64,000 nucleotides of DNA from Microbacterium rhizosphaerae (GTDB lineage: Bacteria > Actinomycetota > Actinomycetes > Actinomycetales > Microbacteriaceae). The DNA is taken from NCBI RefSeq assembly GCF_034120055.1, contig NZ_CP139368.1, positions 806,001 to 870,000 on the forward strand. The letters are read 5' to 3'. Made by a program: the position numbers and the translations under genes. Below the pieces are notes generated by a model that saw only the letters and a program-made list of their open reading frames with translations, was not told where the DNA came from and did no database searches. Of this stretch, positions 11,310 through 51,153 are shown piece after piece (the stretch's first letter is position 1; the number at the start of each line of letters is the position of its first letter).

Positions 11310-11381
11310 CGTTGAGCGAGCGGAGCGAGACGAAACGTGGAAAGCGCGACCTCGTTTCGACTCGCTGACGCTCGCTCAACG
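11310..11381. repeat. Inverted repeat of the CGTTGAGCGAGCG family
   Basis: Left arm begins cgttgagcgagcggagcgag at 11310 and the right arm ends ctcgctcaacg at 11381; the arms pair over most of their length around ggaaagcgcgac. The arm sequence is the same element as the two 38-bp direct copies at 35705 and 35757. It lies between the aldolase/dehydrogenase and rhaB and may form an intercistronic hairpin. Confidence 0.75.
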
Positions 11382-11424
11382 ACCCGCGAAGGGGAGACCC
11401 GGGATCGCAGCGCAGAGGGACGCA

Positions 11425-13512: not shown

Positions 13513-13540
13513 TTCATGGTCCTTGTCATGCGTGCTTCGC

Positions 13541-13702
13541 CTGTCACGATCTCGGGGTGTCGCCCGTGTTCGTGACAGCTGAACGGTTGCTCTCCTGCTC
13601 GCCTGTCACGATCTCGGGGTGTCGCCCGTGTTCGTGACAGCTGAACGGATGCTCTCCTGCTCGCCTGTCATGATCTCGGGGTGTCGCCCGTGTTCGTGAC
13701 AG
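13541..13702. repeat. Three tandem 38-bp palindromes with 62-bp period
   Basis: Palindromes at 13541-13578, 13603-13640 and 13665-13702 each have outer arms CTGTCACGA / TCGTGACAG (CTGTCATGA in the third) and an inner GGG..CCC pairing. The 24-bp intervals are nearly identical (one T/A change), so the whole unit is duplicated in tandem. It fills the gap between rhaI and the aldolase gene and could form three hairpins in the operon mRNA. Confidence 0.9.
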
Positions 13703-13743
13703 GGGAAGCGGGATGCGATGGCGGATGCGATCGCCCGTGCGGG

Positions 13744-14910: not shown

Positions 14911-15304
14911 GTGCGTCGCCTTCTCGTGTGTTCTCGGGGCTCTGGGGGGAGGGGGATGCCGCGGCCAGCTGGTCCGCGAGGTGGAAGATCTCGGTCAGGA
15001 CCGGAGCATCCTGATCGGGGCGGCCGCCCAGGCCCGCGAAGAACGGGGCCATTTCGGCCTCCCAGCGGGCGGCGACCGCCGAGCTCGCGAGGTAGGCCTG
15101 GGCCGCCTCGTCGTCGTCGGTCTCGTAGTAGCCGATGAGCCGTCCCCCGTCGCCGAGGAAGATCGTGTAATTGCGCCGGCCGGCGGTCGCGATCTCGGCC
15201 AGCATCTCCGGCCACACCGCGCGGTGCCGCTGGACGTACGCGTCGATCAGGTCGGGCCGGATGCGCAGCTCGAAGCACACGCGCTGCGGTGACGTCGTCG
15301 TCAT
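14903..15304 (-). CDS. rhaM: L-rhamnose mutarotase
   Basis: 133 residues, slightly longer than the ~105-residue core because of a Ser/Pro-rich tail. RhaM features: CFELRIRPDLIDAYVQRHRAVWPEM with the catalytic His in QRHRAVWPE, NYTIFLGDGGRLIGYYETDD, and WEAEMAPFF. It interconverts alpha and beta anomers of L-rhamnose to feed the isomerase. It is the first gene of the rha operon, 70 nt downstream of a sigma-A-type promoter with a LacI-type operator. Confidence 0.93.
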   Translation of the reverse strand: MTTTSPQRVCFELRIRPDLIDAYVQRHRAVWPEMLAEIATAGRRNYTIFLGDGGRLIGYYETDDDEAAQAYLASSAVAARWEAEMAPFFAGLGGRPDQDAPVLTEIFHLADQLAAASPSPQSPENTREGDAHG

Positions 15305-19517: not shown

Positions 19518-19583
19518 CCCGTACCTCCTTGTATGTCGGCGGTCCGTTCCGCCGATTCGGGTATGTCGTGCTGTCGAGGGGTA

Positions 19584-19635
19584 TTGAAACCATTCAACTG
19601 ACGCCCACCGTACGCGGAGGGCGCCGGATGGTCAA
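19584..19635 (-). promoter_or_regulatory. Importer promoter with LacI-type operator
   Basis: Minus strand: -35 TTGACC (19630-19635), 17-bp spacer, -10 TACGGT (19607-19612). An operator-like palindrome TTGAATGGTTTCAA (19584-19597) follows at about +10 to +20. This arrangement predicts repression of the ABC importer genes. Confidence 0.7.
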
Positions 19636-19643
19636 GGGGCGGA

Positions 19644-19656
19644 TTGAAACGCTTCA
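19644..19656. promoter_or_regulatory. Central LacI-type operator between divergent promoters
   Basis: TTGAAACGCTTCA is the same half-site pattern as the flanking operators. Its centre lies about 60 bp from the operator at 19584 and about 67 bp from the one at 19711, close to whole helical turns (about six each), which would suit cooperative binding or looping. Confidence 0.55.
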
Positions 19657-19696
19657 TCACGAATCGGTAACGCTGTCGCTGTGCAGCCGCGGACGA

Positions 19697-19726
19697 TTGA
19701 CATCCGCTAGTGAATCGTTTCAGGAT
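19697..19726 (+). promoter_or_regulatory. Promoter and operator of the first rhamnosidase gene
   Basis: -35 TTGACA (19697-19702), 18-bp spacer, -10-like CAGGAT (19721-19726). TGAATCGTTTCA (19711-19722) occupies the spacer and is identical to the rhaM operator. Repression by the same LacI protein as the rha operon is the simplest reading. Confidence 0.65.
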
Positions 19727-19765
19727 GGGAGGGGGATGCGACGACGCCCCCCGGAAGGATCAACG

Positions 19766-25972: not shown

Positions 25973-26044
25973 ATGCCGACTAGCGTGAGACGTGACCCAC
26001 ACCGGCGCGCGGCGCCGCCAACGTTCGAAGGAGAACACCCGGCC

Positions 26045-28297
26045 ATGACCGACACCGATCCCCGCGCAGCCCTCGAGGACGCGAGCTTCCTCACCGCCGA
26101 CGCGCCGCGCCCGGCCGCCGTGCGGTTCTCGACCGAGGCCGCGCTCGACCGGCCCCGCAGCGAGGTCTCCTCCGCCGTGCTCGTCGCCACGGCCCACGGG
26201 GTGTACGAGGCCCGCATCGACGGGGAACCCGCATCCACCTCGGTCCTCGACCCGGGCTGGACGTCGTACGAGTGGCGCCTGAACGTCCAGCGGCACGACG
26301 TCACGGCGCTCGTGCAGGGCGGCGAGGGCGACGTGCGGATCGATCTGCTGCTCGGAAACGGGTGGTACCGCGGCGACCTCGGTTTCCGCGGCGCCGATGC
26401 GAACTACGGCACCGAGATCGCGGTCGCAGCCGTGCTCGAGGTGTCGTTCGCCGACGGCTCGACCCAGCGCATCGCCACGTCGCCGGACTGGACCGCGGAG
26501 ACCACCGAGATCACGCGCAACTCGCTCTACAACGGCGAGACGATCGACGCGCGCCTGCGCGGCCGGGCCGGCGAGAGCCTGACCGTCCGTGAGACCGACA
26601 TAGACCGCGCCACCCTTGTGGAGCAGAGCGGCCCGCCGATCGTCCGCCACGAGGTCCGCGCGGTCGAGAAGAGCTGGGCGGCCCCGAGCGGCGCCACCCT
26701 CGTCGACTTCGGGCAGAACCTCGTCGGCTGGATCCGCGTGACGGTGCAGGGGCCCGCGGGCACCGAGATCACGATCCGCCACGCCGAGGTGCTCGAGCAC
26801 GGCGAGCTCGGCACGCGCCCGCTGCGCGGCGCCGAGGCGACCGACGTGTTCATCCTCTCCGGCGGCGTCGACGTCTTCGAGCCCACGCTGACGTTCCACG
26901 GCTTCCGCTACGCCGAGATCACCGGGTGGCCCGGCGCATTCGACCCGTCGGCGCTCGAGGCCGTCGTCGTGCACTCCGAGATGCGGCGGACCGGCACCTT
27001 CCAGTGCTCGGAGCCGCTCGTCGACCAGCTCATCGAGAACTCGATCTGGGGGCAGAGGGGCAACTTCCTGAGCGTCCCGACCGACTGTCCGCAGCGCGAC
27101 GAGCGCCTCGGCTGGACGGGTGACATCGCCGCCTATGCCGCCTCGGCATCCTTCCAGTTCGACACATCCGCTTTCCTCGACAACTGGCTGCGCGACGTGC
27201 TCGCCGAGACCCGCGGGTCCGAGAAGGGGATCGTGCCGATCGTCGTGCCCGATGTGCTGAAGTACGCGCACTTCGAGGAGGGCTTCCGTCACCCCGAGCT
27301 CGGCGCGACCGCCGTCTGGGGCGACGCCGCCGTCTGGGTGCCCCAGGCTCTGTGGCAGGCCTTCGGCGACCGCGAGCAGCTCGCCGAGCAGTACCCCGCC
27401 ATGGTCCTGCACCTCGAGTCCGTCGAGAAGGCGCTGTCGCCGAACGGACTGTGGGACACCGGCTTCCAGTTCGGCGACTGGCTGGACCCGGATGCCTCGC
27501 CCCACGACCCCGCCGCGGCGAAGGCCGACCCGCAGGTCGTCGCGACGGCGTGCCTCTACCGCAGCGCGTCGTTCGCGGCCGAGGTCGCCCGCATCCTCGG
27601 CGACGATGAGGATGCGGCGCGCTGGAGCGCCCTCGCCGACCGGACGCGTGCGGCCTTCAACGAGCACTACGTCACGGGCGGCCGGGTGCGGTCGGACTGC
27701 ACGACCGTCTACGCGCTCGCGATCTCGTTCGATCTGCTCGACGAGGACGACCGCGCTGCCGCCGGCGACCGGCTCGCCGAGCTCGTGCGCGAGCGCGACT
27801 TCCGCGTGACGACCGGCTTCGCGGGCACGCCCTTCATCACGTGGGCGCTGACCGACACCGGACACGTCGACGAGGCCTACGGCCTGCTGCTCGAGCGGGA
27901 GTGCCCGTCGTGGCTGTACCCCGTCACGATGGGGGCGACCACGGTGTGGGAGCGCTGGGACTCGATGCTCCCGGACGGGACCATCAACCCGGGCGAGATG
28001 ACGAGCTTCAACCACTACGCGCTCGGCGCCGTCGCAGACTGGATCTACCAGGTCGTCGGCGGCATCCGCCCCGCTGCCCCGGGCTACGCGCGCGTGCGCA
28101 TCCAGCCCGTCCCCGGCCCGGGCATCGACTGGGCGACGACCTCGTACGAGTCGAGCGCGGGGACGATCTCCACGTCGTGGAAGAAGGATGCCGACGGGTT
28201 CACGCTGGACGTCGAGCTGCCGCACGGTGTGCCGGCGCAGGTCGTGCTGCCCGACGGGTCGGTGCACGAGGTGGTGGGCGGGTCCCACTCCTTCTGA
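26045..28297 (+). CDS. GH78 alpha-L-rhamnosidase (second copy)
   Basis: 750 residues, no signal peptide. It is shorter at the N-terminus than the first copy (one fewer beta domain) but has the same core: LDPGWTSYEWRLNVQRHDVT, GNGWYRGDLGFRG, DFGQNLVGWIRVTVQGPAGTE, then the barrel signature DCPQRDERLGWTGDIAAYA near residue 347. TTVWERWDSMLPDGT and FNHYALGAVADWIYQVVGGIRP come before the C-terminal beta domain. It probably has different linkage or substrate preference from the first copy. The ATG at 26045 is preceded by AAGGAG 11 nt away; an earlier in-frame start at 25973 would overlap the operator and lacks a ribosome site. Confidence 0.93.
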   Translation: MTDTDPRAALEDASFLTADAPRPAAVRFSTEAALDRPRSEVSSAVLVATAHGVYEARIDGEPASTSVLDPGWTSYEWRLNVQRHDVTALVQGGEGDVRIDLLLGNGWYRGDLGFRGADANYGTEIAVAAVLEVSFADGSTQRIATSPDWTAETTEITRNSLYNGETIDARLRGRAGESLTVRETDIDRATLVEQSGPPIVRHEVRAVEKSWAAPSGATLVDFGQNLVGWIRVTVQGPAGTEITIRHAEVLEHGELGTRPLRGAEATDVFILSGGVDVFEPTLTFHGFRYAEITGWPGAFDPSALEAVVVHSEMRRTGTFQCSEPLVDQLIENSIWGQRGNFLSVPTDCPQRDERLGWTGDIAAYAASASFQFDTSAFLDNWLRDVLAETRGSEKGIVPIVVPDVLKYAHFEEGFRHPELGATAVWGDAAVWVPQALWQAFGDREQLAEQYPAMVLHLESVEKALSPNGLWDTGFQFGDWLDPDASPHDPAAAKADPQVVATACLYRSASFAAEVARILGDDEDAARWSALADRTRAAFNEHYVTGGRVRSDCTTVYALAISFDLLDEDDRAAAGDRLAELVRERDFRVTTGFAGTPFITWALTDTGHVDEAYGLLLERECPSWLYPVTMGATTVWERWDSMLPDGTINPGEMTSFNHYALGAVADWIYQVVGGIRPAAPGYARVRIQPVPGPGIDWATTSYESSAGTISTSWKKDADGFTLDVELPHGVPAQVVLPDGSVHEVVGGSHSF

Positions 28298-30082: not shown

Positions 30083-34011
<3,929 letters not shown>

Positions 34012-34024
34012 GCGCATCCCACCG

Positions 34025-34130
34025 CGCCCACCTCCCACTGCGCCCACCTCCCACTGCGCCCACCTCCCACTGCGCCCACCTCCCACTGCGCCCACCTCCC
34101 ACTGCGCCCACCTCCCACCACGCCCACTTC
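34025..34130. repeat. 16-bp tandem repeat array between convergent genes
   Basis: Unit cgcccacctcccactg, five perfect copies from 34025 to 34104, then two decayed copies up to 34130. It fills the gap between the beta-galactosidase stop and the stop of the DUF222/HNH gene and reaches the HNH stop codon. Strand asymmetry is strong (C-rich on plus), with no hairpin potential. Confidence 0.95.
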
Positions 34131-35634
34131 ATGCGGCGGGATGGAATCTTCGGGGCGGTGGCTGAAGGTCGCCGAAGGCGTACCGGCGTGCCAGTCGGGC
34201 GGGCAGAGGCGTCGGCGGCGCACCCGGGGTGTGGAGCATGAAGTCGCCCTTGCCCTCGCGGGTGATGCGCCACCCGTGGTGGTGGAGGTTCATGTGATGG
34301 AAGCGGCACAGGAGGACGCCACGGTCGATGTCGGTCCGGCCTCCGTGCTCGGCGCAGTGGTCGATGTGGTGCGCCTCGCAGTACGACGCGGGACGGTCGC
34401 AGCCGGGAATGCGGCATCCGCCGTCCCGAATCGCGAGCGTCACCCGCTGCTTCGTCGAGTAGAGCCGCGCTTCGCGCCCGAGATCGAGCGGGTTGCCGCG
34501 GTCGTCGAACGCGGCGGAGCGCGTGCCCGTGTCGCAGGTGTGCGTGGCGATCAGCCAACCGGGAAGAGCCGTGTCGGCGTCCTCGAGCAGCGCAACGGCA
34601 GGAAGCCCGTCGAGTGCGTCGCGGTGGGCGGCCGTCGTGGTGACGAGCCGGATGCCGGCCTGGCGGGTGCCGAACACGGCCTCGGCGTCGGCGACCGCAC
34701 CGGCCCGCAGGACGTCCATGATGAGGTCGTACGTCAGCTGGTCGTTCGTGCGCGGATCGTTCACCAGCTCGTCGGCCCGTGCCCTCTCGGCCGAGTCGAC
34801 GAACCTCGGCCCTCCGCGGCGAGGGCGGAGCGCCGTTGCGATGATGGCGTCGACCCAGGCGCCCCCCTCGTCATCGAATGCGAAGCTTCCACGGCGCGTG
34901 CCGTCCCGGTCGAGCCAGGTGCGGAAGGCCCGGCCCTGGAACCGTTCCTCGAACCGCCGTTCGGCGCCGACCGGGTCGAGCAGATCGCGGATGGTCCGGG
35001 CCGCCGAGGCCAGTTCTTCCACCGTGCGCACGCCGGCCTCGTCGATGAGCTGACCGGCGGCCGATTCCCATGCGGCGACGACCTCGAGGTCCGGCCGCAC
35101 GCCATCGAAGCGCGAGGTCGGCGGCTCGCCGAGCCCGCGGTAGACGGCGTCGTGCTGCGCCGAGGTCTGCGCCCCGGTCATCAGCGCGTCGCCGAGGACT
35201 GTGTGCCAGGGGCGCGGCGCAGACGCGGTGCCAGCGGCATCCGTACTCGACGGCGCGCCGGTTGCGTCGCGCCCATCCGACGCGTCATCGAGCCCCAGAG
35301 CGAGCGACTCACCGAGTCGCACGTGCTTGGCGGCGTCGGCGCGCGTCGTTCCTGTGAGGTCCTGGATGAGCGAGACCGTGGATCGATGCCCGCGCTTCTG
35401 CGCCAGTCCGCCATGCCCGGCGCCTCGGCCGGATCGCACCGCGACGGCACCGGTCGCCGCGATCCGTATCGACTCGCCGGCGCGCACGAGCACCGAAGCC
35501 TGCTCGATCAGCGAGAGCAGTTCATCGTCGGTGAGCCGCTGCACGGCGGCCGGTGCATCGGTCGCCTCCACGTCGTCGCCGAGCGCGGCTCGAAGCGCGT
35601 CGAGCGCCCGGTCGAGATCGGTGAAGAATGCCAT
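34129..35634 (-). CDS. DUF222 / HNH endonuclease-domain protein
   Basis: 501 residues. The N-terminal two thirds is DUF222 (helical, TDEELLSLIEQASVLVRA-like pattern at DDELLSLIEQASVL; RSGRGAGHGGLAQKRGH). The C-terminus is an HNH module: CRIPGCDRPASYCEAHHIDH, then GGRTDIDRGVLLCRFHHMNLHHHGW with the Cys and His ligands. These proteins are abundant multicopy genes in actinobacteria, spread as selfish or intron-like elements; their biological role is unsettled. Flanked on both sides by repeats (16-bp array and 38-bp copies), which fits a mobile history. Confidence 0.88.
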   Translation of the reverse strand: MAFFTDLDRALDALRAALGDDVEATDAPAAVQRLTDDELLSLIEQASVLVRAGESIRIAATGAVAVRSGRGAGHGGLAQKRGHRSTVSLIQDLTGTTRADAAKHVRLGESLALGLDDASDGRDATGAPSSTDAAGTASAPRPWHTVLGDALMTGAQTSAQHDAVYRGLGEPPTSRFDGVRPDLEVVAAWESAAGQLIDEAGVRTVEELASAARTIRDLLDPVGAERRFEERFQGRAFRTWLDRDGTRRGSFAFDDEGGAWVDAIIATALRPRRGGPRFVDSAERARADELVNDPRTNDQLTYDLIMDVLRAGAVADAEAVFGTRQAGIRLVTTTAAHRDALDGLPAVALLEDADTALPGWLIATHTCDTGTRSAAFDDRGNPLDLGREARLYSTKQRVTLAIRDGGCRIPGCDRPASYCEAHHIDHCAEHGGRTDIDRGVLLCRFHHMNLHHHGWRITREGKGDFMLHTPGAPPTPLPARLARRYAFGDLQPPPRRFHPAA

Positions 35635-35704: not shown

Positions 35705-35794
35705 GGTCGCTTCGTCTCGCTTCGCTCGCTCAACGACCGGGGTGCGGGATGACGACGGTCGCTTCGACGCGCTTCGCTCGCTCAACGACCGGGG
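35705..35794. repeat. Two 38-bp direct repeats of the CGTTGAGCGAGCG family
   Basis: Copies at 35705-35742 and 35757-35794 differ only in the stretch after ggtcgcttcg (tctc versus acgc). The reverse complement is the element of the inverted repeat at 11310. The second copy supplies the stop codon and last residues (PGR) of the DUF1537 kinase gene. Confidence 0.9.
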
Positions 35795-37080
35795 CGCCCA
35801 CCCTCGCGCAGGCGATCGTGTCCGAGCGCCGCGACGTCGGTGAAGAGGGTGTCGACGCCGACCTGACCGCCCTTGAGGAGCAGCTCGACGCCGTCCAGCG
35901 GTGAGCCCGGCGCGTGCGCGCGCAGGAGCACGACGTTGCCCCACGGGTTTGCGGCGATCGACAGGGACTCGACGCCCAGCAGCCTTGTGACGCGGCTCGA
36001 GGTGTCACCGCCGGCGACGATGACACGCTGCGCCCCCGCGACCCGCACCGCGGCGTCGACGAAGGCCGCCGACGCGGCGGCGATCTCCGCCAGCGCGCCG
36101 ACCACAGGCAGGTCGGCGTCGTCCGAGGTGAGCGCGACGCTCGTTCCCGCCCGCAGCAGTTCGACGACCGCGTCGAGGGATGAGTCGTCCGCCGGCACGG
36201 GCAGCGGCCGGACGTGCCAGCCGGCGCGGGCCGCCGCATCCGCCTGCCGGCGCGTCTGCGCCGACCGGCTGCCCGACACGACCAGCACCGGGCCGGGTGT
36301 GGGCGTCGACGTCGGCAGGGCGACGGGCTCCGCGTCGAAGGCCCTCGCGAGCCCGAGGCTGAGGCCCCCCGATCCGATGGCGAACACGGGAGCGGGCAGC
36401 CGGGCGACGGCACGGCCGACGAGCGCGACGTGTTCGTCGTCGAGCGCGTCGAGGACGACGGCAGCCGACCCCTGGGAGACGAGGAGGTCACCCAGCGCCT
36501 CCGCGGAGGAGTACGCCGTGAACGGGATCGCACCGATGCCGAGCTCCGTCTGCCGGGCGAGGTGCACCGCGAGCTCCGACTCGGTCATGGGCGTCGCGGG
36601 ATGGTGGGACATCGTCGGCTGGCGGTCGAGCCGGTAGATGTGCCCGGCCTCCGCCGCGAAGTGGTGGCCGAACACCGTGTACCGGCCGAAGTCGGGCTGC
36701 GCGAACAGCAGCGGCACGACGCGGGCGCCGGTGATCTGGCGGCCGAGCTCGATCACGCGGCCCAGGTTCCCGATCTCGGGGGACGAGTCCGCGGTCGAGC
36801 ACGCCTTGTACTGGAGGATGCCGGGCTCCAATGCGGCGAGCGCCTCGAGCGCCGGTCGCACCTCGTCGTCCAGTGCCTCGCCGCCGAGCGAGCGGGCGAT
36901 GCCCGCGATGCCGACGACATCGACCTCGGCCGCGGCATCCACCAGGACGTCGCGATCGGGCACGCCCACGAACAGCCGCACCGTCCACCCGCGCCGCGCG
37001 AACTGCAGCAGCGCGTCGACGCTGCCGGTGAAGTCGTCTCCGTAGAAGGCGACACGAGCGGCCGAGGGCTCGTCAGACAC
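35782..37080 (-). CDS. Four-carbon/acid sugar kinase family protein (DUF1537, OtnK/OiaK type)
   Basis: 432 residues, the usual size for this ATP-dependent kinase family. N-terminal substrate domain: VAFYGDDFTGSVDALLQFAR (DDxTG motif) and YKACSTADSSPEIGNLGR. C-terminal nucleotide domain: GGLSLGLARAFD, VVSGSRSAQTRRQ, VIVAGGDTSSRVTRLLG, NPWGNVVLLRA. Characterised members phosphorylate four-carbon acids (OtnK, LtnK/DtnK) or 3-oxo-isoapionate (OiaK). Being coupled to a RuBisCO-like protein gene (GTGTCTGA overlap) favours an OiaK-like role. The GTG at 37080 is used. The gene end has been remodelled by a 38-bp repeat that gives the stop. Confidence 0.88.
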   Translation of the reverse strand: MSDEPSAARVAFYGDDFTGSVDALLQFARRGWTVRLFVGVPDRDVLVDAAAEVDVVGIAGIARSLGGEALDDEVRPALEALAALEPGILQYKACSTADSSPEIGNLGRVIELGRQITGARVVPLLFAQPDFGRYTVFGHHFAAEAGHIYRLDRQPTMSHHPATPMTESELAVHLARQTELGIGAIPFTAYSSAEALGDLLVSQGSAAVVLDALDDEHVALVGRAVARLPAPVFAIGSGGLSLGLARAFDAEPVALPTSTPTPGPVLVVSGSRSAQTRRQADAAARAGWHVRPLPVPADDSSLDAVVELLRAGTSVALTSDDADLPVVGALAEIAAASAAFVDAAVRVAGAQRVIVAGGDTSSRVTRLLGVESLSIAANPWGNVVLLRAHAPGSPLDGVELLLKGGQVGVDTLFTDVAALGHDRLREGGRPGR

Positions 37081-38338
37081 GCGCCGGCCCGAAGAGCTCG
37101 GCCGCCCTGCGGAGCGGCTCCGAGGAGGCCAGCGCATCCTCGAGGGTCTCGCCACGTGCGGCCGATGACCACGCCGTCCGCATGCTCTCGACGCCTGCGC
37201 GCGCGCCGTCCGGGTGTCCGTGGATGCCGCCGCCCGCCAGCACGAGCAGGTCGGTCGTGCCGACAGCCGCATACGTGGCGTGCGCGAGCCCGCCCCACTG
37301 TCCCGACGAGAGCACCGGCACGGTCGAGTTCAGCCCCAGCAGGGGCGTCCGCACAGCGGCGATGGATGCGAGCACCTCGGCGTCCGTCTCATAGAACTTG
37401 TTGCTGATCCCGTTCGTGTGCAGGTGATCGGCGCCCGAGAGCCGCGCGATCTTCTGCCATGCCTGGAACGCTATCCCGATCTGGGACGAACGGCCCAGCG
37501 CGCCGAACATCGCGCGGTGCCCGTGGATCGGAACGACAGACCGTCGGCGCAGGTACTCGAGTCCAGCGAGCCCGATGAGGTTGATGCACGCCATGACGCA
37601 CGTGCCGCCTGCGGCGACGACGAGGTCGTGATTCGCCTCCAGCCGGTCGATGTCGTCGGTGATGTTGAAGGCATACATCGGCTTGTGCCCAGTGCGATCG
37701 GCATGCCGCTCGATGACCGGCATGACCGCCTTCACCCGCTCGGCGAGCGGCGCCGTCGGCCCGTTGCCCTGCAGCTCGTCGTCCTTGATGAAGTCGGTGC
37801 CCGCGTCGCACAGCTCCTGTACGACGTCAGCGAGGTCGCCGGGGGAGAGGCCGATGCTCGGCTTGATGATCGTGCCGATCATGGCGCCGTCGGGCCGGTC
37901 CACGAGGCGGCGGGTGCCCTCGACGCCGAACTGCGGACCCGAATAGCGCAGCGCGAACGCCGGCGGCAGGTCGAGGTCGACGAGGCGGATGGCGGCGAGC
38001 TCCTTGATCTCGAACAGGTTTCCCGCGACAGCGGCGAGGAGGTTCGGCAATGAGGGCCCGAAGTTGTCGAGGGGAAAGCGGATGCGCAGGCGCGCGCGGC
38101 GGCGGTCGGCCGGGTCGCCGACCGACCCCGGCAGCGGGGCGAAACCGCTCGCCGGCAGCTCCTCGACCGACTCCACCTGCGCGGCGAAGCGGGCGCGGAC
38201 ATCGTCGGACTCGCGCTCGACCCGCACGAAGGTGCCCGTCGACTGCTCCCCGGCGAGCACCTCGGCCGCCTGCGCCAGCGGGACGGACGTCTCGATCTCG
38301 TACGTGGCGATCACGTGCTCTGCGGTCATCGCGATCAC
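37073..38338 (-). CDS. RuBisCO-like protein (form IV large-subunit family)
   Basis: 421 residues with the RuBisCO large-subunit fold. Active-site equivalents are present: Lys159 (GTIIKPSIGLSP; Lys175 of RuBisCO) and the carbamylated-lysine metal site TDFIKDDELQ with Lys185, Asp187 and Glu188. HGHRAMF (His294-Arg295 equivalents), a loop-6 lysine in HTNGISNKFYE and AGGGIHGHPDG are also kept. The metal site is intact, so it is a working enolase-type enzyme, not a carboxylase by context. With the adjacent DUF1537 kinase the nearest precedent is 3-oxo-isoapionate-4-phosphate decarboxylase or transcarboxylase/hydrolase (OiaX/OiaT) of D-apionate catabolism. The GTG at 38338 overlaps the GH127 stop by 4 nt; an internal ATG at 38329 is possible. 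Confidence 0.9.
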   Translation of the reverse strand: MIAMTAEHVIATYEIETSVPLAQAAEVLAGEQSTGTFVRVERESDDVRARFAAQVESVEELPASGFAPLPGSVGDPADRRRARLRIRFPLDNFGPSLPNLLAAVAGNLFEIKELAAIRLVDLDLPPAFALRYSGPQFGVEGTRRLVDRPDGAMIGTIIKPSIGLSPGDLADVVQELCDAGTDFIKDDELQGNGPTAPLAERVKAVMPVIERHADRTGHKPMYAFNITDDIDRLEANHDLVVAAGGTCVMACINLIGLAGLEYLRRRSVVPIHGHRAMFGALGRSSQIGIAFQAWQKIARLSGADHLHTNGISNKFYETDAEVLASIAAVRTPLLGLNSTVPVLSSGQWGGLAHATYAAVGTTDLLVLAGGGIHGHPDGARAGVESMRTAWSSAARGETLEDALASSEPLRRAAELFGPARV

Positions 38339-40323
38339 CACACCGTCGGCAGCCACACCGACATCTCGCCCGCGCCGCGGTTGCCCCACGCGAAGTAGGG
38401 CACGAGCCGGGTGCGCACGGCCTCGACCGGCGCGTCCGGGAGGTCCTCGTAGAGCCGGCCGTCGCCGCCCGCGGGCAGCAGCGCGAGCTCGGCCTCGAGG
38501 GCGATCACACGGGTGCCCGCGATCTCGGTCTCGACCGGCGTGAACGCGGTGCCGCGGCGGATCGCCACCCGCTCGATCGGCAGGCCGACAGGAAGATCCG
38601 CGCTCTCGAGGCAGTACACGACCGGCCCGCGCTGCACCGCGACCTGGCCGGTCACCTCCTCGGCGAGCCGGTGGCCGCGCAGCATCCGCACGGGCATCGG
38701 CAGCTCGAGCTCGATCACGTCGCCGACCCGCCAGTCGCGCTCGACACGCACATACCCCGAGCCGTCGAGGGGCGCGGCCTCGCCGGCGACGGTGAGCGAC
38801 GCATCCTTCGCCCAGTCCGGGATGCGCACGTGCACGGGCACACCGCCCGCCATGGCCGCGGTGACCTCGAAGCGGATCGTGCCGCTCCACGGGTAGTCGC
38901 TGTGCTCGTGCAGCGCCAGGACCCGGTCACCCGAGACGGTGCGGACCTCGCCGCCGCCGTAGAGGTGCAGGTAGAGGCCGTCGTCGCCGACCGAGGCGGC
39001 GCGCTCGTGGAACCGAGCGAGCGTCCGCGCGGTGTTCGGCGGGCAGCAGAAGCAGCTGAGGTACTCCTGGCGCAGTCGGGCGTCCGAGGGCGGTGGGGCG
39101 GGGACCGGATGCAGCGCCGTGTCGCCCGGGCGTCGCAGCGGGTAGGGGAGGTCGCGCACCTGACGCAGCGGGTTCGTGTAGAAGTAGTCCGCGCCGGAGA
39201 GCCCGATGCCGGCGAGCAGGCTGTTGAAGGCCACGCGCTCGATGACGTCGGCGTATCGCGCGTCCGCCGTGAGCGCCAGCATCCGCTCGCTCCACAGGAT
39301 CATGCCGATGTTCGCGCACGACTCGTTGTGAGCCGTTGTGTGAGGCAGCTGGTAGGCACGCCCGTATGCCTGGTGCACGCGGCTGATGTCGCCCTGCCAC
39401 GGCGATCCGTCGGGTGAGGCGCCGTCGTAGAGGGCGCCGCATCCGCCCGTGATGGCGAGCTTGGTGTCGACGACATCGCTCCAGAGGGTCTCCAGCACCG
39501 CCCGCAGCTCCGGGTCGCCGGTCTCGGCGACCAGATCGGCGAGACCCGCATAGAGGTAGTTCGCGCGGACGGCGTGCCCGGCCGCGACGCGCTGCTCGCG
39601 GACGGGGATGCGGTCCTGGTTGTCGTCGCCGCCCTCCTCGAAGTCGTCGCGCACGCGCAGGAACGCCTCGGCGAGTTCGAGGTACCGCCGGTCGCCGGTC
39701 GCGCGGTAGAGCTCGACGACGGCCATGTAGTGCGACGGGCAGATCGCGCTGCGCGCGAGCTCCCGCGGCTTGTTCACGGCGAGGTCCTCGAGGAACCCGG
39801 CTGCCTTGCGCGCCGCGTCGAGCAGGATCTCGCTGCCGGTGACCTCGTAGTGGCGGACGCCGGCGGTGATGAGGTGGCCGAGGTTGTAGGTCTCGAACGC
39901 GAAACGGTCGGCGAGGGCGGCGGCATCCCCGTCGTGGCGCGCCGCGATCAGCGTCGGCGTGTGCACGTACCCGTCCTCCCGCTGCACCGAGGCGACCAGC
40001 CCGGCGACGTCGTCGACGATCGCGCGCAGCTCTGGCGTCGGGTCGGTCTCGAGCTGCGCGATCGCCGCCTCGAGCCACTTGTAGACGTCGCCGTCCATGA
40101 ACGGCGGGCCGCTGTGCTCGCCCTCCTCGAGCCCCGCGGCGATGCGGAAGTTCCGGATGCCGGGGCTCACCTCCGGGTCGTCGAGCATGTCCCACATGCG
40201 GGGGATCGTGACCTGGTGCGTGCGCGTGGTCACGTCTGCCCAGAACCCCGATGCCCAGCGGGCATCGCGGGCGCCGAGCTGCTGGAGAGGGGCGTGCGCG
40301 CGCGGCGGGGAGTTCGTGGACAT
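38335..40323 (-). CDS. GH127 family glycoside hydrolase (beta-L-arabinofuranosidase family, DUF1680)
   Basis: 662 residues, no signal peptide. The alpha/alpha-barrel shows GH127 features: GFWADVTTRTHQVTIPRMWD, PPFMDGDVYKWLEAAI, FETYNLGHLITAGVRHYEVTG, AHNESCANIGMILW near residue 333, and LSCFCCPPNTARTLARF near residue 424. Glu and Cys in NESC together with the CC pair reproduce the Zn-Cys3-Glu site of HypBA1. Known activities are beta-L-arabinofuranosidase and, in a gut Bacteroides, release of aceric acid from rhamnogalacturonan II. First gene of the operon with the RuBisCO-like protein and DUF1537 kinase. Start ATG 40323 follows GAGAGGA. Confidence 0.92.
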   Translation of the reverse strand: MSTNSPPRAHAPLQQLGARDARWASGFWADVTTRTHQVTIPRMWDMLDDPEVSPGIRNFRIAAGLEEGEHSGPPFMDGDVYKWLEAAIAQLETDPTPELRAIVDDVAGLVASVQREDGYVHTPTLIAARHDGDAAALADRFAFETYNLGHLITAGVRHYEVTGSEILLDAARKAAGFLEDLAVNKPRELARSAICPSHYMAVVELYRATGDRRYLELAEAFLRVRDDFEEGGDDNQDRIPVREQRVAAGHAVRANYLYAGLADLVAETGDPELRAVLETLWSDVVDTKLAITGGCGALYDGASPDGSPWQGDISRVHQAYGRAYQLPHTTAHNESCANIGMILWSERMLALTADARYADVIERVAFNSLLAGIGLSGADYFYTNPLRQVRDLPYPLRRPGDTALHPVPAPPPSDARLRQEYLSCFCCPPNTARTLARFHERAASVGDDGLYLHLYGGGEVRTVSGDRVLALHEHSDYPWSGTIRFEVTAAMAGGVPVHVRIPDWAKDASLTVAGEAAPLDGSGYVRVERDWRVGDVIELELPMPVRMLRGHRLAEEVTGQVAVQRGPVVYCLESADLPVGLPIERVAIRRGTAFTPVETEIAGTRVIALEAELALLPAGGDGRLYEDLPDAPVEAVRTRLVPYFAWGNRGAGEMSVWLPTVW

Positions 40324-40560: not shown

Positions 40561-41901
40561 ATGATCACCCGCCGAACCCGCCACAGCATGCTTGCGGTCG
40601 GCATCGCGCTCGCCACAGCCGGCACTCTCGCCGCCTGTTCCTCGGGCGCGGGGTCGGGCTCCAGCACCGCCGGAGGCTCCGCCGCGACCGGCAAGGATCC
40701 GTCGTCGTTCACGGTGCTGACCGCCAACGAGAACCCGACGCTGGCCAAGGAGCTCGACGCGCTCGCCGCCAACCAGTGCAAGGCCGAGAACAAGGCCCTG
40801 CCGCTCTCTCACCAGACGACCGCTCAGGCGGACGTCGTGCAGAAGGTCACTCTGCTCGCCAGCCAGGGCTCGCTGCCCGCGCACTTCATCGCCGGCACCG
40901 CCATGGTCCGGCCGGACGGAGACCTCGGCAAGGGCAAGCTCGTGCTCGACTACAAGAAGGCCCTGACCGACCTCGGCGCGTGGGACGACGTTCTGCCTGC
41001 GGCGTCATCCACCGTGCAGAGCGTGTACGGCCAGATGGTCTCGCTCCCGTACCAGTACAACGTCGAGGGCATCTGGTACAACAAGGAGATCTTCTCGAAG
41101 CTCGGCCTCACGCCGCCGCAGACGTTCGACGACCTGCTCGCCGATGCGAAGAAGGTCAAGGATGCCGGCTACACGCCGTTCGCGATCGACGGCAAGGACG
41201 CGTGGCCGATCACGCGCCTCATCGGCATGTACATCTTCCGCAACGTGGGGCCCGACGCCATGAAGGACATCCAGTCCGGCAAGGCCAAGCTCACCGACGC
41301 CGCCTACGTGAAGGCCGCCACCCAGGTCCAGCAGATGGCGAAGGACGGCTACTTCGGCGAGGGCTTCATCTCGAAGGATGCGGCGACCGCCAACAACGAC
41401 TTCCTCACCGGCAAGGCCGCGATGAAGTACGACGGCTCGTGGCTGCTCGCCAACATCAACGACAAGACCCAGAACAAGATCGGCGCCGACAGCATCGGCC
41501 TGATGCCGTTCCCCGCCGTCAGCGGCGGCAAGGGCAGCATCGACCAGTGGGCCGCGAACGCCGGCGCCGCGATGGCGATGAGCACCAAGTCGTACGGCCC
41601 GAAGGTGTCGGCCTGGCTGAAGTGCATCACGCAGAACTACGGCTCTCAGGCCCTGCAGGACGCGGGTGTGATCTCCGGCTTCAAAGTGAACAAGGCTGTG
41701 ACCGACATCCCCGCACCGACGAAGATGGTTCAGGAGAAGGTCGCCGGCATCAAGCAGACCGTGCTCTGGTTCGAGGCGCTGATGGATGCCAAGTCCACGG
41801 CCCTCGCGCAGTCCAACGTCTCGCTGCTGACCACCGGACAGATGTCGCCGCAGGACTACATGTCCCAGCTGCAGTCGAGCGTCGACGCCAACAAGCAGTA
41901 G
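40561..41901 (+). CDS. Sugar ABC transporter solute-binding lipoprotein (family 1), second importer
   Basis: 446 residues. Signal peptide RRTRHSMLAVGIALATAGTL and lipobox LAAC (Cys ~27). The mature domain has type I solute-binding features: GIWYNKEIFSKLGLTPPQTFD, GKAAMKYDGSWLLANI, NAGAAMAMSTKSYG. The ATG at 40561 is set by AGGAGG six bases upstream; the open frame extends further but crosses the promoter. Divergent from the GH127 operon and sharing its control region, so it probably imports the oligosaccharide that GH127 attacks. Confidence 0.92.
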   Translation: MITRRTRHSMLAVGIALATAGTLAACSSGAGSGSSTAGGSAATGKDPSSFTVLTANENPTLAKELDALAANQCKAENKALPLSHQTTAQADVVQKVTLLASQGSLPAHFIAGTAMVRPDGDLGKGKLVLDYKKALTDLGAWDDVLPAASSTVQSVYGQMVSLPYQYNVEGIWYNKEIFSKLGLTPPQTFDDLLADAKKVKDAGYTPFAIDGKDAWPITRLIGMYIFRNVGPDAMKDIQSGKAKLTDAAYVKAATQVQQMAKDGYFGEGFISKDAATANNDFLTGKAAMKYDGSWLLANINDKTQNKIGADSIGLMPFPAVSGGKGSIDQWAANAGAAMAMSTKSYGPKVSAWLKCITQNYGSQALQDAGVISGFKVNKAVTDIPAPTKMVQEKVAGIKQTVLWFEALMDAKSTALAQSNVSLLTTGQMSPQDYMSQLQSSVDANKQ

Positions 41902-41919
41902 AGGACGTCATCCGATGAT

Positions 41920-41955
41920 CGCGTCCGGACCGTTCCTCGGGACGGTCCGGACGCG
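41920..41955 (+). terminator. Intercistronic hairpin between binding protein and permease genes
   Basis: A perfect 14-bp stem, CGCGTCCGGACCGT (41920-41933) pairing with 41942-41955 around an 8-nt loop, without a U-tract. Located 18 nt after the binding-protein stop and 18 nt before the permease ATG. Confidence 0.8.
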
Positions 41956-41973
41956 GCGGATCCGGGAGATCCC

Positions 41974-42855
41974 ATGAAGCGCGTATTCGGAGATCGCAAG
42001 ACGATCCTCATCCTGCTCGCACCCACGCTCGTCATCTACGTGCTGCTGAAGCTCGTGCCGGTCGCCTGGTCGCTGGGGCTCTCGTTCTTCGAGGGCAACA
42101 CCCTGCGCGGTTTCGAGTTCGTCGGCTTCTCGAACTTCACCAAGTTCTTCACCGACCCGGCGGCGATCCAGTCGCTGTGGGTCAGCATCATCTTCGCCGT
42201 CCTGGCCACCGTCGGACAGGTCGTGCTCGGCTACCTTCTCGCGCTGCTGTACGTCTTCGTCCTGCGCAACGGCTCGGCGTTCGTGCGTACGGCGGTCTTC
42301 TTCCCGATGGTCCTGCCGACCGTCGCCGTGGCGCTCCTGTTCCGCAATCTCGTCTCGGTCGGGTCGAACCAGGGGCCGATCAACGCGATCATCAACTTCT
42401 TCGGCGGGCAGAGCGTCGAGTTCCTCGCGTCGACGATCGGCACGATGGTCGTCGCCCTCGTCATGACGTACTGGAGCTCGATGGGCTTCTACGCCGTCCT
42501 GCTCTACACCGGGCTGCTCGACATCCCCGACGAGATCATCGAGTCCGCGCGCCTGGACGGCGCGAGCGGCGTCCGGCTCGTGCGGCACATCGTCATCCCG
42601 CTGTCGATGCCCATCCTGATCTCGTCGATCATCTTCAGCTTCAACTCGACGCTCAAGGTGTTCGACAGCCTGCTCGCCCTCAACAACGGCGGGCCGGGCA
42701 CGTCCACCTCCCCGCTCACCCTCTACATGTACCGCACGGCCTTCCAGTACGCGGAGTACGGGTACGGCAGCACGATCGCGCTCATGCTGACGCTGCTGTG
42801 CCTCGTCTTCACCCTCGCCGTGTTCCGCTCGTCGACCCGGAAGGTGGATGCCTGA
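41974..42855 (+). CDS. Sugar ABC transporter permease (CUT1, MalF-like), second importer
   Basis: 293 residues with six predicted membrane helices, beginning KTILILLAPTLVIYVLLKLVPVAW. The EAA loop reads IIESARLDGASGVRLVRHIVIP. The product partners the next permease. The stop overlaps an in-frame upstream ATG of the next gene, and the two genes are effectively adjacent. No ATPase gene belongs to this operon. Confidence 0.92.
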   Translation: MKRVFGDRKTILILLAPTLVIYVLLKLVPVAWSLGLSFFEGNTLRGFEFVGFSNFTKFFTDPAAIQSLWVSIIFAVLATVGQVVLGYLLALLYVFVLRNGSAFVRTAVFFPMVLPTVAVALLFRNLVSVGSNQGPINAIINFFGGQSVEFLASTIGTMVVALVMTYWSSMGFYAVLLYTGLLDIPDEIIESARLDGASGVRLVRHIVIPLSMPILISSIIFSFNSTLKVFDSLLALNNGGPGTSTSPLTLYMYRTAFQYAEYGYGSTIALMLTLLCLVFTLAVFRSSTRKVDA

Positions 42856-42856
42856 C

Positions 42857-43792
42857 ATGACCGCCACCCAGGCCGCCGCCCACAACGCAGTCCAGGCGCG
42901 CACCGAGTCCCGGAAGGTGGATGCAGGCGTGCCGCCGGTCCGGCAGACGTCGCGTCGCAGGACCGGCCGCATCCTGCGCCGCCTGCCCATCTGGATCGCG
43001 GTCGGCATCCTCCTGTTCGTCGTGCTCTACCCGCAGTTCTGGGTGATCATGGGCTCGTTCAAGTCGCAGACGGAGTTCCTGTCGAATCCGACCTGGTCGC
43101 TGCCGCAGAGCTGGGACGTCAGCAACTACGTCGAGGCGCTCACGCGCGGAAACGTGGCGGTGAACTACCGCAACAGCATCCTCGTGACGATTCCCGCCGT
43201 GACGATGATCGTGCTCCTCGGCGTCGCGGCCGGCTACGCGCTCGAGGTCATGATCTGGCGCGGGCGCAAGGCCACCCTGCTCCTCATCCTCGGCGGAATC
43301 ATGGTGCCGGGGCAGATGATCCTCGTGCCGCTGTTCACCGCGTACTTCCAGATCGGCATCACCGACACGCTGTGGCCGATGATCATCACCTACACGGTGA
43401 TGGGCATCCCGCTGACGACGTTCCTCATGGCGGCCTACTTCCGCTCGGTGCCCCGCGAGATCTTCGAGGCGGCGACGGTCGATGGATGCGGACCCCTGCG
43501 CTCGTTCTTCTCGATCGGCCTGCCGCTCATGCGCAACGCCATCCTGACCGTCGCGCTCGTGCAGTTCTTCAGTGTGTGGAACGACCTGCTGATCGCGCTC
43601 ACGTTCACGACCGATCCGTCTCTGGCGACCATCCAGGTCGGCCTTCTCAGCCTCAACGACGAGTATGGTTCCACGCAGTACGGACCCCTGTTCGCCGCGA
43701 TCTCCATCAACATCGTGGTGCTCGGGATCATCTTCGTATTCCTCAACAAGAAGATCATGGCGGGCCTCGCATCCGGCTCGCTGAAGGGATGA
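42857..43792 (+). CDS. Sugar ABC transporter permease (CUT1, MalG-like), second importer
   Basis: 311 residues. After a hydrophilic ~45-residue N-terminus there are six membrane helices (WIAVGILLFVVLYPQFWVI first). The EAA loop is EIFEAATVDGCGPLRSFFSIGLP. Start ATG 42857 is preferred to ATG 42848 because the GGAAGGTGG at 42838-42846 would abut the latter. Completes a SBP-permease-permease importer. Confidence 0.92.
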   Translation: MTATQAAAHNAVQARTESRKVDAGVPPVRQTSRRRTGRILRRLPIWIAVGILLFVVLYPQFWVIMGSFKSQTEFLSNPTWSLPQSWDVSNYVEALTRGNVAVNYRNSILVTIPAVTMIVLLGVAAGYALEVMIWRGRKATLLLILGGIMVPGQMILVPLFTAYFQIGITDTLWPMIITYTVMGIPLTTFLMAAYFRSVPREIFEAATVDGCGPLRSFFSIGLPLMRNAILTVALVQFFSVWNDLLIALTFTTDPSLATIQVGLLSLNDEYGSTQYGPLFAAISINIVVLGIIFVFLNKKIMAGLASGSLKG

Positions 43793-43799
43793 TGTCGTC

Positions 43800-44453
43800 G
43801 TGACCGGCCTGAACCGCATCGCGTTCCTGCACACCGGAGCGGTGAACATCGCTCCGTTCGGCGAGCTCGCCGCCGAGCTGCTTCCCGGCATCACGGTGGT
43901 CAACTACCTCGACGACCGCATCGTCGCCGACCTGGGAGACCCGGACCGCACCGACTCGGTGGCGGGGCGTGTCAACGATCTCGTGCGCGCCGCCGCGGCG
44001 GGCGGGGCGGATGCCGTCATGCTCACGTGCTCGTCGATCTCGGAGCTGGCCGCGCCCGCCGCGGCGGAGGCCGGCATCCCGGTGCTGCGCGTCGATGAGG
44101 CGATGGCGGATGCTGCGGTCCGGGCCGGGAGCCGCATCCGCGTGCTCGCGACCCTGCCGACCACGTGCCGTCCGACGCTCGCCCTCGTCGAGGAGCGCGC
44201 CGCGCTCGTCGGAGCGCACCCCGAGCTGTCGAGCGAAGTCATCGAGGGTGCCTTCGCCGCGGTGTCGTCGGGCGACCGGGCGACGCACGACCGGCTCGTC
44301 GGCGAGGCGATTCTTCGCGCGGCCGCCGAGTCGGATGTCGTGGTCCTCGCGCAGGCGTCGATGGCGTCCGCGGCCTCCGCGGTCGATGTCGATGTGCCGG
44401 TGCTGACGAGCCCCCGGCTCGGGGTCGAGCGCCTCGCCGCCTTCGCTGCGTGA
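43800..44453 (+). CDS. Aspartate/glutamate racemase family protein, atypical active site
   Basis: 217 residues of the Asp/Glu/hydantoin racemase superfamily. The first catalytic cysteine is kept (DAVMLTCSSISEL, Cys77). The second, normally in a GCT-like turn, is replaced by alanine (VVVLAQASMAS), so a two-base racemase mechanism is doubtful. One-cysteine relatives such as arylmalonate decarboxylase show that other chemistry is possible. It lies 7 nt after the importer permease and is likely cotranscribed, suggesting a role on the imported acid or sugar acid. Start GTG at 43800; the ribosome site is GAAGGG. Confidence 0.75.
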   Translation: MTGLNRIAFLHTGAVNIAPFGELAAELLPGITVVNYLDDRIVADLGDPDRTDSVAGRVNDLVRAAAAGGADAVMLTCSSISELAAPAAAEAGIPVLRVDEAMADAAVRAGSRIRVLATLPTTCRPTLALVEERAALVGAHPELSSEVIEGAFAAVSSGDRATHDRLVGEAILRAAAESDVVVLAQASMASAASAVDVDVPVLTSPRLGVERLAAFAA

Positions 44454-50172: not shown

Positions 50173-51153
50173 TCAGGCCTGCTGTCGGTCGATCAGCGCC
50201 TCGGCGGTGTGCACGTCGGTGACGAGCGCGTTCACCCACCCGCCGGCCACGGCGCCGTGGATGGCCTCGAGCTTGCGGGGGCCGCCGGCGACCCCGACGC
50301 GGCGCGGGATCCGGCGCAGGTCGTCGGCCGGGATGGCGATGATGCGGTCGTCGAGGGCGCCCAGGACGGGGGTCCCGTCGGCGCGGAAGATGCGGTGACA
50401 GATGTCGCCGACGGCTCCGGCCTCGATGAGGGATGCCGTCTCCTCCGCCGAGAACGCGTTGCCGCTCGAGGCGAGGAGGTCGGAGGGCTCGACGCTGCCG
50501 ATGCCCATGATGGCCATGGTGAGCTCGCGCCAGCGGCGCGTCACCTCGCCGAGCGCCCCTTCCAGGATGCTGTCGCGGATGTCGGGGCCGGCGACGACGC
50601 CGGGCGCCTGCACGTACACAGCCTCGGCGCCGAGCATGCGGGCGAGCTCGCCGAGCAGCCGGTTGGAGTGGCTCTGCACCTCGGCGACGCCGATGCCGCC
50701 CAGCAGCTGCACCACCTCGGTCGCGCCACGGACCGTGAACGGGCGCATGCGGTCGACCATGGCGAGGAGGGTCTGGCTCCATGACGAGATGCCGATGCGG
50801 TCGGTGCCCGCGAGCGTCGCCTCGAGGTAGGCCGCGGCGCCGGCGCCGATCGCGGCAATGGTCTCGCTGTCGTCGGCGTCGGGGTCGACGTCGACGACGA
50901 CCGCCTCGGCGAGGCCGTAGCCCTGCTCGAGCTTCTCCTCGAGGTCGGCGTAGAGCCCCGGCGCGACGGTGACCGTCGTGCGGACGATGCCGACGTCGAC
51001 CGCGCGCTTGAGCAGGCGCGAGACCTTGGCCTGCGAGATGTTCAGCGCGGTGGCGATGTCGGCCTGGCGGACGCCGCGTTCGTGGTACATGCGGGCGACC
51101 TTGGTGAGCAGGCGCACCTGTCCGTCGAGCGGGCGTGCGTACCCTTGCGACAT
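50173..51153 (-). CDS. SorC/DeoR-type sugar-binding transcriptional regulator
   Basis: 326 residues. N-terminal HTH: VARMYHERGVRQADIATALNISQAKVSRLLKRA is seen in the pieces YHERGVRQADIATALNIS and QAKVSRLLKRAVDVG. A C-terminal SorC ligand domain follows (DRIGISSWSQTLLAMVDRM, QLLGGIGVAEVQSHSN, IMGIGSVEPSDLL, VGVAGGPRKLEAIHGAVAGGWVNALVTD). Such proteins bind phosphorylated sugars as tetramers and control sugar operons. It lies 134 nt downstream of a glycoside-hydrolase operon on the same strand and has its own promoter with a site shared with the GH127/importer region. Confidence 0.92.
   Translation of the reverse strand: MSQGYARPLDGQVRLLTKVARMYHERGVRQADIATALNISQAKVSRLLKRAVDVGIVRTTVTVAPGLYADLEEKLEQGYGLAEAVVVDVDPDADDSETIAAIGAGAAAYLEATLAGTDRIGISSWSQTLLAMVDRMRPFTVRGATEVVQLLGGIGVAEVQSHSNRLLGELARMLGAEAVYVQAPGVVAGPDIRDSILEGALGEVTRRWRELTMAIMGIGSVEPSDLLASSGNAFSAEETASLIEAGAVGDICHRIFRADGTPVLGALDDRIIAIPADDLRRIPRRVGVAGGPRKLEAIHGAVAGGWVNALVTDVHTAEALIDRQQA

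Follow-up and report, generated by a model that had tools for sequence, protein, structure and literature searches.

The stretch of DNA analyzed here, referred to as the window, comprises 64,000 nucleotides of the Microbacterium rhizosphaerae genome (contig NZ_CP139368.1, positions 806,001 to 870,000), which measures 4.06 Mb and is assembled as one contig. The window contains a minus-strand operon encoding a GH127 family hydrolase, a RuBisCO-like protein (RLP), and a DUF1537 kinase (Table 1). A preliminary description of this stretch reported overlaps of 4 and 8 nucleotides between these genes, and the coordinates of the open reading frames (ORFs) confirm this arrangement: with the GTG start codon at position 38338, the RLP gene overlaps the GH127 gene by the 4 nucleotides GTGA, and the start of the kinase gene overlaps the RLP stop codon by 8 nucleotides (GTGTCTGA). 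The three core genes had thus been recognized, but their divergently transcribed partners were overlooked: the plus strand from 40561 to 44453 encodes a lipoprotein and two sugar permeases of an ABC importer, as well as an Asp/Glu-racemase-like protein. In a protein database, the closest named relatives of the RLP belong to Microbacterium.

Table 1. Features of the window, followed by those of related loci; coordinates refer to the window unless stated otherwise
Feature	Coordinates	Strand	Remarks
GH127 hydrolase, BT1003 type (putative aceric acid hydrolase)	38335-40323	-	662 aa from ATG
RLP	37073-38329 from ATG; alternative GTG start 38338	-	Predicted decarboxylase of a 2-hydroxy-3-oxo-acid 4-phosphate, OiaX-like chemistry
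DUF1537 (four-carbon acid sugar) kinase	35782-37080	-	GTG start; best model OiaK
ABC importer substrate-binding lipoprotein	40561-41901	+	PF01547, 83.8 bits; lipobox LAAC by eye; ORF opens at 40453
ABC sugar permease 1	41974-42855	+	UgpA/GlcT-like in NCBIfam, below cut-offs; kept in related loci
ABC sugar permease 2	42848-43792	+	GlcU-like in NCBIfam, below cut-off; kept in related loci
Asp/Glu-racemase-like protein, candidate pathway isomerase	43800-44453	+	PF01177, 57.5 bits; first catalytic Cys only (TCSS)
LacZ-type beta-galactosidase of GH2 (candidate enzyme for the Gal-beta-1,2-aceric acid linkage)	31003-34011	+	Member of family c10
GH78 alpha-L-rhamnosidase	25973-28297	+	Family c2; NCBIfam rhamnosidase 611.8 bits, cut-off 1720
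Second GH78	19529-22408		
SorC/DeoR-type sugar-binding regulator	50173-51153	-	PF04198
L-rhamnose genes: rhamnulokinase, rhamnulose-1-phosphate aldolase/SDR fusion, rhamnose isomerase (13744-14910), putative small mutarotase (14903-15304)	9882-15304	-	
DUF5060/DUF5605 domain protein	51291-53072		
Apionate-type operon: ApnL-like, SDR, ApnO-like (PGDH_C), xylose-isomerase-like TIM barrel, TIM-like isomerase, RpiB family, dihydroxyacetone-kinase-family kinase, GntR-like regulator	873.8-881.3 kb of the genome (L106:5845-13281)	-	RLP-free; 3.8-11.3 kb past the window end
c14 family members	L044:7533-9257; also L033, L034, L038, L039, L043, L045, L048, L069, L072, L082		575-aa family

The GH127 protein possesses the catalytic, middle, and C-terminal Pfam domains of its family (321.9, 73.4, and 76.3 bits, all above cut-off). 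Its best NCBIfam match is AcerHdlse (NF049879; 766.3 bits, short of the curated cut-off of 950), and its best solved relative is BT1003 (BT_1003) of Bacteroides thetaiotaomicron (PDB 5mqo, 642.7 bits), followed by a Geobacillus arabinofuranosidase (356.2 bits) and HypBA1 (about 250 bits). In five alignments, the motifs ICPSHYM, DDNQDRIP, GALYDGxSPDG, and VHQxYGRxYQLP were common to the window protein and 5mqo and were not found in the other four chains. The Gln of VHQ aligns with the Glu at the acid/base position of 4qjy, 6ex6, and 3wre; 7exu also has Gln at this position, but is an engineered E322Q mutant. E334, C336, C426, and C427, at the zinc ligand and Cys positions, were invariant in 7 of 7 sequences; for GH146/GH127 enzymes, PMC10850190 gives Glu, Cys, and a Cys-Cys pair as zinc ligands, with a Cys nucleophile. 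We infer that the shared motifs and the Gln define a BT1003 type, and judged by its sequence the window enzyme is by type an acerase. Unlike BT1003, it has no signal peptide visible by eye, because of which it is probably cytoplasmic, and its gene shares an operon with genes whose products may catabolize the freed sugar. A second GH127 protein encoded far off in the same genome scored 357.5 bits with the acerase-type profile, compared with 1203.4 bits for the acerase-type enzyme, and is the better arabinofuranosidase candidate.

The genomic context of the RLP was then compared in 81 loci, namely, that of the window and 80 others, the best matches among at least 550 relatives, a sample biased to close relatives. 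Our own gene calls were mechanical and incomplete; gene presence was rechecked by a six-frame profile search, the scores of which are not independent evidence since the profiles were built from the loci themselves. GH127-superfamily hydrolases scoring above 500 bits were detected in 39 loci and fall into the families c6 (the acerase type, 23 loci), c34 (5), and c14 (11), of which c6 and c34 carry Pfam PF07944. The motifs VHQ(A/S)YGR, CPSHYM, DDNQD, and GALYDGASPD were each present in all 23 acerase-type proteins of the loci, including that of the window. A racemase-like gene was found in 35 of the 39 hydrolase-bearing loci, and a gene similar to that of ApnO in a single one (L036). Over the whole set, ApnO-like genes occurred in 25 and racemase-like genes in 38 of the 81 loci, and both in two (L036 and L086), corresponding to an exclusion in the raw counts with a Fisher p of 1.9e-6. 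Seven Paenibacillaceae have c14 followed by racemase, RLP, and kinase genes that overlap or are separated by short gaps, and the racemase gene abuts that of GH127 in L014, L017, L021, L028, L030 (on the opposite strand), L036, and L074.

Family c34 is a second, distant GH127 group that occurs beside RLP and kinase genes in four sphingomonads and a Granulicella (L068, at 7368-9191, and L077, L079, L083, and L091), with ETPC and CC invariant in 5 of 5 sequences. Family c14, found near RLP and kinase genes of eight Paenibacillaceae and three Kribbella strains, had no match in Pfam or NCBIfam. In a profile comparison it was related to GH127 with a probability of 93 and an E value of 2.9e-7; the E-x-C and Cys-Cys motifs are both invariant within c14, and the former is in register with GH127 but the latter is not. 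The first 20 Foldseek matches of a c14 model were all GH127/GH146 structures (E values of 2e-11 to 3e-8, followed by 5e-4), whereas the 50 rows returned by VIA-align 2 for this model (mean pLDDT 66.8) contained other alpha-toroid proteins and not GH127. Going by the Foldseek ranking, family c14 is predicted to be a GH127/GH146-like zinc-cysteine hydrolase.

The RLP tree was computed from 76 of 83 RLPs; those of L045, L085, and L024 were omitted by name, and those of L055, L060, L081, and L012 on account of a stop within the matched range, as also seen in L085. For L081, of Paraburkholderia kirstenboschensis, it is the RLP stretch matched by tblastn that holds an in-frame stop codon. The RLP of L026 (recorded as Planococcus sp. 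APC 4015) groups among Microbacteriaceae and their relatives, and the label of this record may be wrong. In this tree (INDEPENDENCE), the RLPs of hydrolase/racemase loci form actinobacterial, Paenibacillaceae, and sphingomonad-Granulicella groups plus the single rows L064 (a planctomycete) and L074 (a member of the Chloroflexota), whose neighbors in the tree are RLPs from loci with ApnL or with ApnO and ApnL. A single clade for the 34 hydrolase/racemase RLPs was rejected (p 3.9e-67), and the association of hydrolase and racemase is recurrent since these RLPs do not form one clade. When traits were counted on 75 rows of the tree (L013 also being left out), 11 independent pairs differed in the racemase; on average, the hydrolase differed in the same way in 7.5, in the opposite way in 0.5, and was unchanged in 3.1 of them (median p 0.016).

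A similar picture emerged from a profile survey of 394 actinobacterial genomes of the class. Acerase-type GH127 proteins (at least 910 bits, the next best score being 468.6) were identified in 9 genomes of three genera, RLPs (E value of 1e-40 or lower) in 12, and racemase-like proteins of at least 248 bits in 11. All nine acerase genomes also carry an RLP and a high-scoring racemase-like protein; the hypergeometric p for acerases within RLP genomes was 3.8e-16 by genome and 2.4e-5 by genus. Furthermore, 25 of the 80 genomes behind the loci were searched, and acerase-type GH127 proteins of at least 723 bits were detected only for L064, L035, and L052; none was found elsewhere in the genomes of L055, L041, L046, L062, L063, L065, and L051. 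L052 is a locus without hydrolase and racemase, and the acerase-type gene of its genome (723 bits) is about 20 kb off, on a contig (C4) that by its number is that of the RLP.

The RLP matched the Pfam domains RuBisCO_large (218.7 bits) and RuBisCO_large_N (50.6 bits), and the kinase SBD_N (154.5 bits) and NBD_C (60.5 bits), all above cut-off. Among NCBIfam models, the RLP scored best with OiaX (NF042437; 422.8 bits, not reaching the cut-off of 700), with no OiaT model among its matches, and its best PDB match was 3nwr (387.8 bits); no labelled OiaT sequence turned up in the searches made. The best of three NCBIfam models for the kinase was OiaK (NF042436; 256 bits, likewise not reaching a cut-off of 700), compared with 146 bits for OxoTetrKin. 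The OiaX model gave 398 to 514 bits with ten RLPs from other loci, with or without ApnO nearby, and since three ApnO-associated RLPs also remained below the cut-off (478 to 499 versus 700), this threshold does not discriminate. The use of NCBIfam cut-offs to divide apionate from aceric RLPs was discarded, as no separation was seen. Two further identities of the RLP were rejected: that of MtnW (diketo-methylthiopentyl-phosphate enolase), as TIGR03332 gave 144 bits against a cut-off of 513.6, and that of a genuine RuBisCO, as Ser occupies the Lys177 position and the type III RuBisCO model gave 242.5 bits against a cut-off of 497.

The residues listed earlier as Lys159, Lys185, Asp187, and Glu188 correspond, counted from the ATG codon, to K156, K182, D184, and E185, and were identical in all 55 RLPs compared. 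These were 19 ApnO-type and 36 racemase-type proteins (including that of the window), from the 76 of 81 RLPs used for the active-site comparison; the RuBisCO position numbers follow our own alignment by eye. The equivalent of RuBisCO Lys177 is Ser in 51 and Asn in 4 of the 55 sequences. At 15 RuBisCO-equivalent positions the commonest residue was identical in the two types, and no column separating the 19 from the 36 proteins at 80% was found. The preliminary description held that an RLP falling inside OiaX/OiaT, with full activity on 3-oxo-isoapionate 4-phosphate and an apionate gene set elsewhere, would make this the known pathway; as regards placement inside OiaX, this criterion is ambiguous, since the RLPs interleave with ApnO-associated ones and have the same active-site residues. 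These shared residues and the interleaved tree positions suggest that both types probably carry out the same chemistry on different precursors, the substrate being set by the context.

Asp/Glu racemases have two catalytic cysteines, one per half. In the racemase-like family, C77 is invariant and LAQxSMA replaces the second Cys in all sequences of two alignments (26 of 26 and 14 of 14). The predicted structure of the window protein has an Asp/Glu-racemase fold (pLDDT 95.2), and its top Foldseek matches were Asp/Glu racemases, allantoin racemase, and arylmalonate decarboxylase. Among the 120 matches listed from a large database, relatives were named only "aspartate/glutamate racemase," "Asp/Glu/hydantoin racemase," or "hypothetical." In view of the gene arrangements described above, the protein is taken as a core enzyme and not as a transport accessory, and our guess, reached by elimination, is that it is the isomerase of the pathway.

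Based on its sequence, the gene set is rather likely to be a catabolic operon for L-aceric acid (3-C-carboxy-5-deoxy-L-xylose) from side chain B of rhamnogalacturonan II (RG-II); this sugar is not known to occur outside RG-II. The preliminary description had proposed aceric acid as one possibility, and it is the best-supported reading in view of the BT1003-type GH127, the profiles, and the recurrent neighborhoods. While the sequence establishes gene content and enzyme classes, we infer the substrate, the role of the isomerase, and the fate of the product. The ABC importer would take up an oligosaccharide piece of side chain B, rhamnosidase and galactosidase would trim the fragment, and GH127 would act in the cytoplasm to free aceric acid. 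Next, an isomerase would move the carbonyl group from C1 (aldehyde) to C2 (ketone), a role for which the racemase-like protein is the likeliest candidate, to yield CH3-CHOH-C(OH)(COO-)-CO-CH2OH. This 2-ketose is the methyl homologue of 3-oxo-isoapionate, HOCH2-C(OH)(COO-)-CO-CH2OH, and for this reason hydrolase, isomerase, kinase, and RLP would suffice, with no need for a dehydrogenase, lactonase, or oxidoisomerase. Such a redox-free route matches the gene content. The DUF1537 kinase would then act like OiaK and phosphorylate the CH2OH group adjacent to the ketone, and the RLP would remove the carboxylate in a reversal of RuBisCO carboxylation, as OiaX does, giving CO2 and 5-deoxy-pentulose 1-phosphate. 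The latter may finally be split into dihydroxyacetone phosphate and acetaldehyde by a class II aldolase, for which the rhamnulose-1-phosphate aldolase of the window is one possibility. This predicted last step is also that of the 5-deoxyadenosine route, for which aldolases acting on 5-deoxy-pentulose 1-phosphate are mentioned in PMC6302742; the phosphate ester would be of other origin in the window, and the operon has no dedicated aldolase. As to the trimming, the GH2 enzyme BT_0993 removes Gal from Gal-beta-1,2-aceric acid, according to PMC11739564.

Several observations weigh against this assignment. The AcerHdlse, OiaX, and OiaK matches are those given above as falling short of their cut-offs, and no Asp/Glu-racemase-family member is known to act as an aldose-ketose isomerase. 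Of the 38 racemase loci, only 4 showed a class II aldolase gene within the stretches retrieved; in three single-sequence searches, an aldolase near the operon was found only in L014, L026, and L028 (rhamnose genes), in L064, and in four loci without racemase or ApnO. Some loci combine the two gene sets: in L036, an ApnO-like gene lies about 8 kb from acerase, racemase, RLP, and kinase genes, racemase and ApnO occur together in L086, and L023 carries an acerase plus an ApnL-like gene (345 bits), and in three Kribbella loci and L039 the c14 hydrolase occurs without racemase. Avoidance of ApnO was not significant on independent pairs, either for the racemase or for the hydrolase (median p 0.63 in each case). 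In the genome survey, the 248-bit line for the racemase was set post hoc, with next scores of 226.5, 224.8, and 221 and thus no gap; the family is wider than the pathway, with matches at an E value of 1e-15 in 40 of the 394 genomes; and some of the surveyed genomes, as well as the window itself, contributed sequences to the search profiles. In Occultella (G360; the same hit was obtained for the genome of L035), acerase and racemase genes are on one contig with GH2 and GH78, and the RLP gene is on a separate contig beside GH28- and pectinesterase-like genes (contigs C7 and C18). Finally, no apiosidase (PF13204) was found in the genome of the window.

A first alternative is ordinary apionate catabolism, in which OiaK and OiaX would act on 3-oxo-isoapionate derived from apiose and GH127 would be co-located since both sugars come from RG-II. 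D-Apionate catabolism with an OiaK kinase and an OiaX/OiaT RLP was reportedly described by Carter et al. in 2018 (PMID 29867142). As in that system, the window has adjoining kinase and RLP genes with OiaK and OiaX as best models and the active-site residues of ApnO-associated RLPs, and the tree positions of L064 and L074 fit in as well. Unlike it, the operon has no ApnO, ApnL, or dehydrogenase, their place being taken by the GH127 of acerase type, the racemase-like protein, and the ABC importer, and the predicted substrate is one methyl larger. The earlier statement that apionate lactonase and oxidoisomerase genes are missing holds for the 24-kb stretch around the RLP, in which a six-frame profile search found no ApnO or ApnL-type gene, but not for the genome, as ApnL-like and ApnO-like genes are located a few kilobases beyond the right-hand boundary of the window, about 30 to 33 kb from the RLP operon (about 32 kb for ApnO). 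This proximity favors apionate catabolism; however, the two genes belong to an RLP-free apionate-type operon with its own downstream set (Table 1). Its ApnL-like protein scored 220.8 bits (cut-off 750), its dihydroxyacetone-kinase-family kinase was above a subfamily cut-off, its RpiB-family member exceeded the cut-off of the ribose-5-phosphate isomerase model with 200.5 bits and gave 145.7 bits with DerI (cut-off 240), and its TIM-like isomerase was below cut-offs. The xylose-isomerase-like TIM barrel, which no NCBIfam model matched, could be OiaC. With this assignment, the operon fits the non-RLP apiose route of ApnO, OiaC, L-erythrulose kinase, and isomerases. As it has its own downstream set, apionate is probably handled there, judging from gene content, and the RLP operon would not be needed for this compound. 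Given in addition that no ApnO was found in 38 of the 39 hydrolase-bearing loci and that it is the acerase and the racemase-like protein to which the RLP is tightly linked, we consider apionate catabolism an unlikely explanation.

A second alternative retains aceric acid as the substrate and assigns OiaT-type chemistry to the RLP: the carboxylate would be moved and hydrolysis would yield 3-phosphoglycerate and lactate, the extra methyl making lactate of glycolate, followed by a GlcD/GlcF-like FAD oxidase. PMC6302742 reports an RLP that has transcarboxylase/hydrolase activity towards 3-oxo-isoapionate-4-phosphate. A gene for a GlcD/GlcF-like FAD and Fe-S oxidase (family c19; in 7 of 81 loci by clustering and 9 of 81 by profile) overlaps that of the kinase at its end in L014 (L014:12524-15307) and adjoins the RLP in L036. 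However, no c19 member turned up within the 24 kb surrounding the window operon, and the best model of the RLP is OiaX. The pathway of the rhamnose aldolase/dehydrogenase fusion also yields lactate, and the oxidase may serve this lactate instead. Taken together, OiaT-type chemistry appears distinctly improbable. A third alternative, with GH127 acting as a beta-L-arabinofuranosidase and an unrelated sugar acid as the substrate of the RLP operon, can be largely discounted: the PDB molecule name of 5mqo does say beta-L-arabinofuranosidase, and almost all characterized GH127/146 enzymes in the tree of PMC10850190 have this activity, but BT1003 is the exception there, as an aceric acid hydrolase, and the window enzyme has the BT1003 motifs with Gln at the acid/base position, in a genome where the distant second GH127 better suits that role.

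Family c10, with a LacZ-type GH2 member in L019, occurs in 15 of 81 loci by clustering; the c2 member of L027 has GH78 Pfam domains; a GH43 gene is also near the operon; and PF04198 is shared with a c13 member, the regulator type beside related loci. The L-rhamnose genes include matches to TIGR02632 (998.5 bits) and TIGR02635 (630.8 bits) above the NCBIfam cut-offs, and the rhamnulokinase remained below that of TIGR02627 (401.9 bits). The product of 14903-15304 matched no NCBIfam model, and we presume it to be a small mutarotase from its position. Between the GH2 and kinase genes, a minus-strand ORF (34129-35634) is DUF222/HNH-like by eye, and a relative occupies the equivalent place in L016; a short tandem repeat is seen in the translations at about 34000-34100 (repeated GGGRSGRWAQWE), between the GH2 and DUF222-like genes. 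DUF5060/DUF5605 domains, present in the window, flank PF13204 in L091.

In the literature searched, with subscription journals outside its scope, no description of aceric acid breakdown after its release was found, nor any paper joining "aceric acid" or "apionate" with "RuBisCO-like." The chances are about even that the loci represent an undescribed redox-neutral aceric acid pathway with a racemase-fold isomerase and RLP decarboxylation, which was assembled repeatedly in several phyla with three GH127-superfamily hydrolase groups, including c14 without a Pfam match. The predicted chemistry is simple to test, as the predicted intermediate is one methyl away from a known compound. If true, the finding would provide a complete four-step route for aceric acid, extend the short list of known RLP roles by one substrate, explain what a racemase-like family that has a single catalytic cysteine does, and point to a hydrolase family, c14, that has so far no Pfam match.

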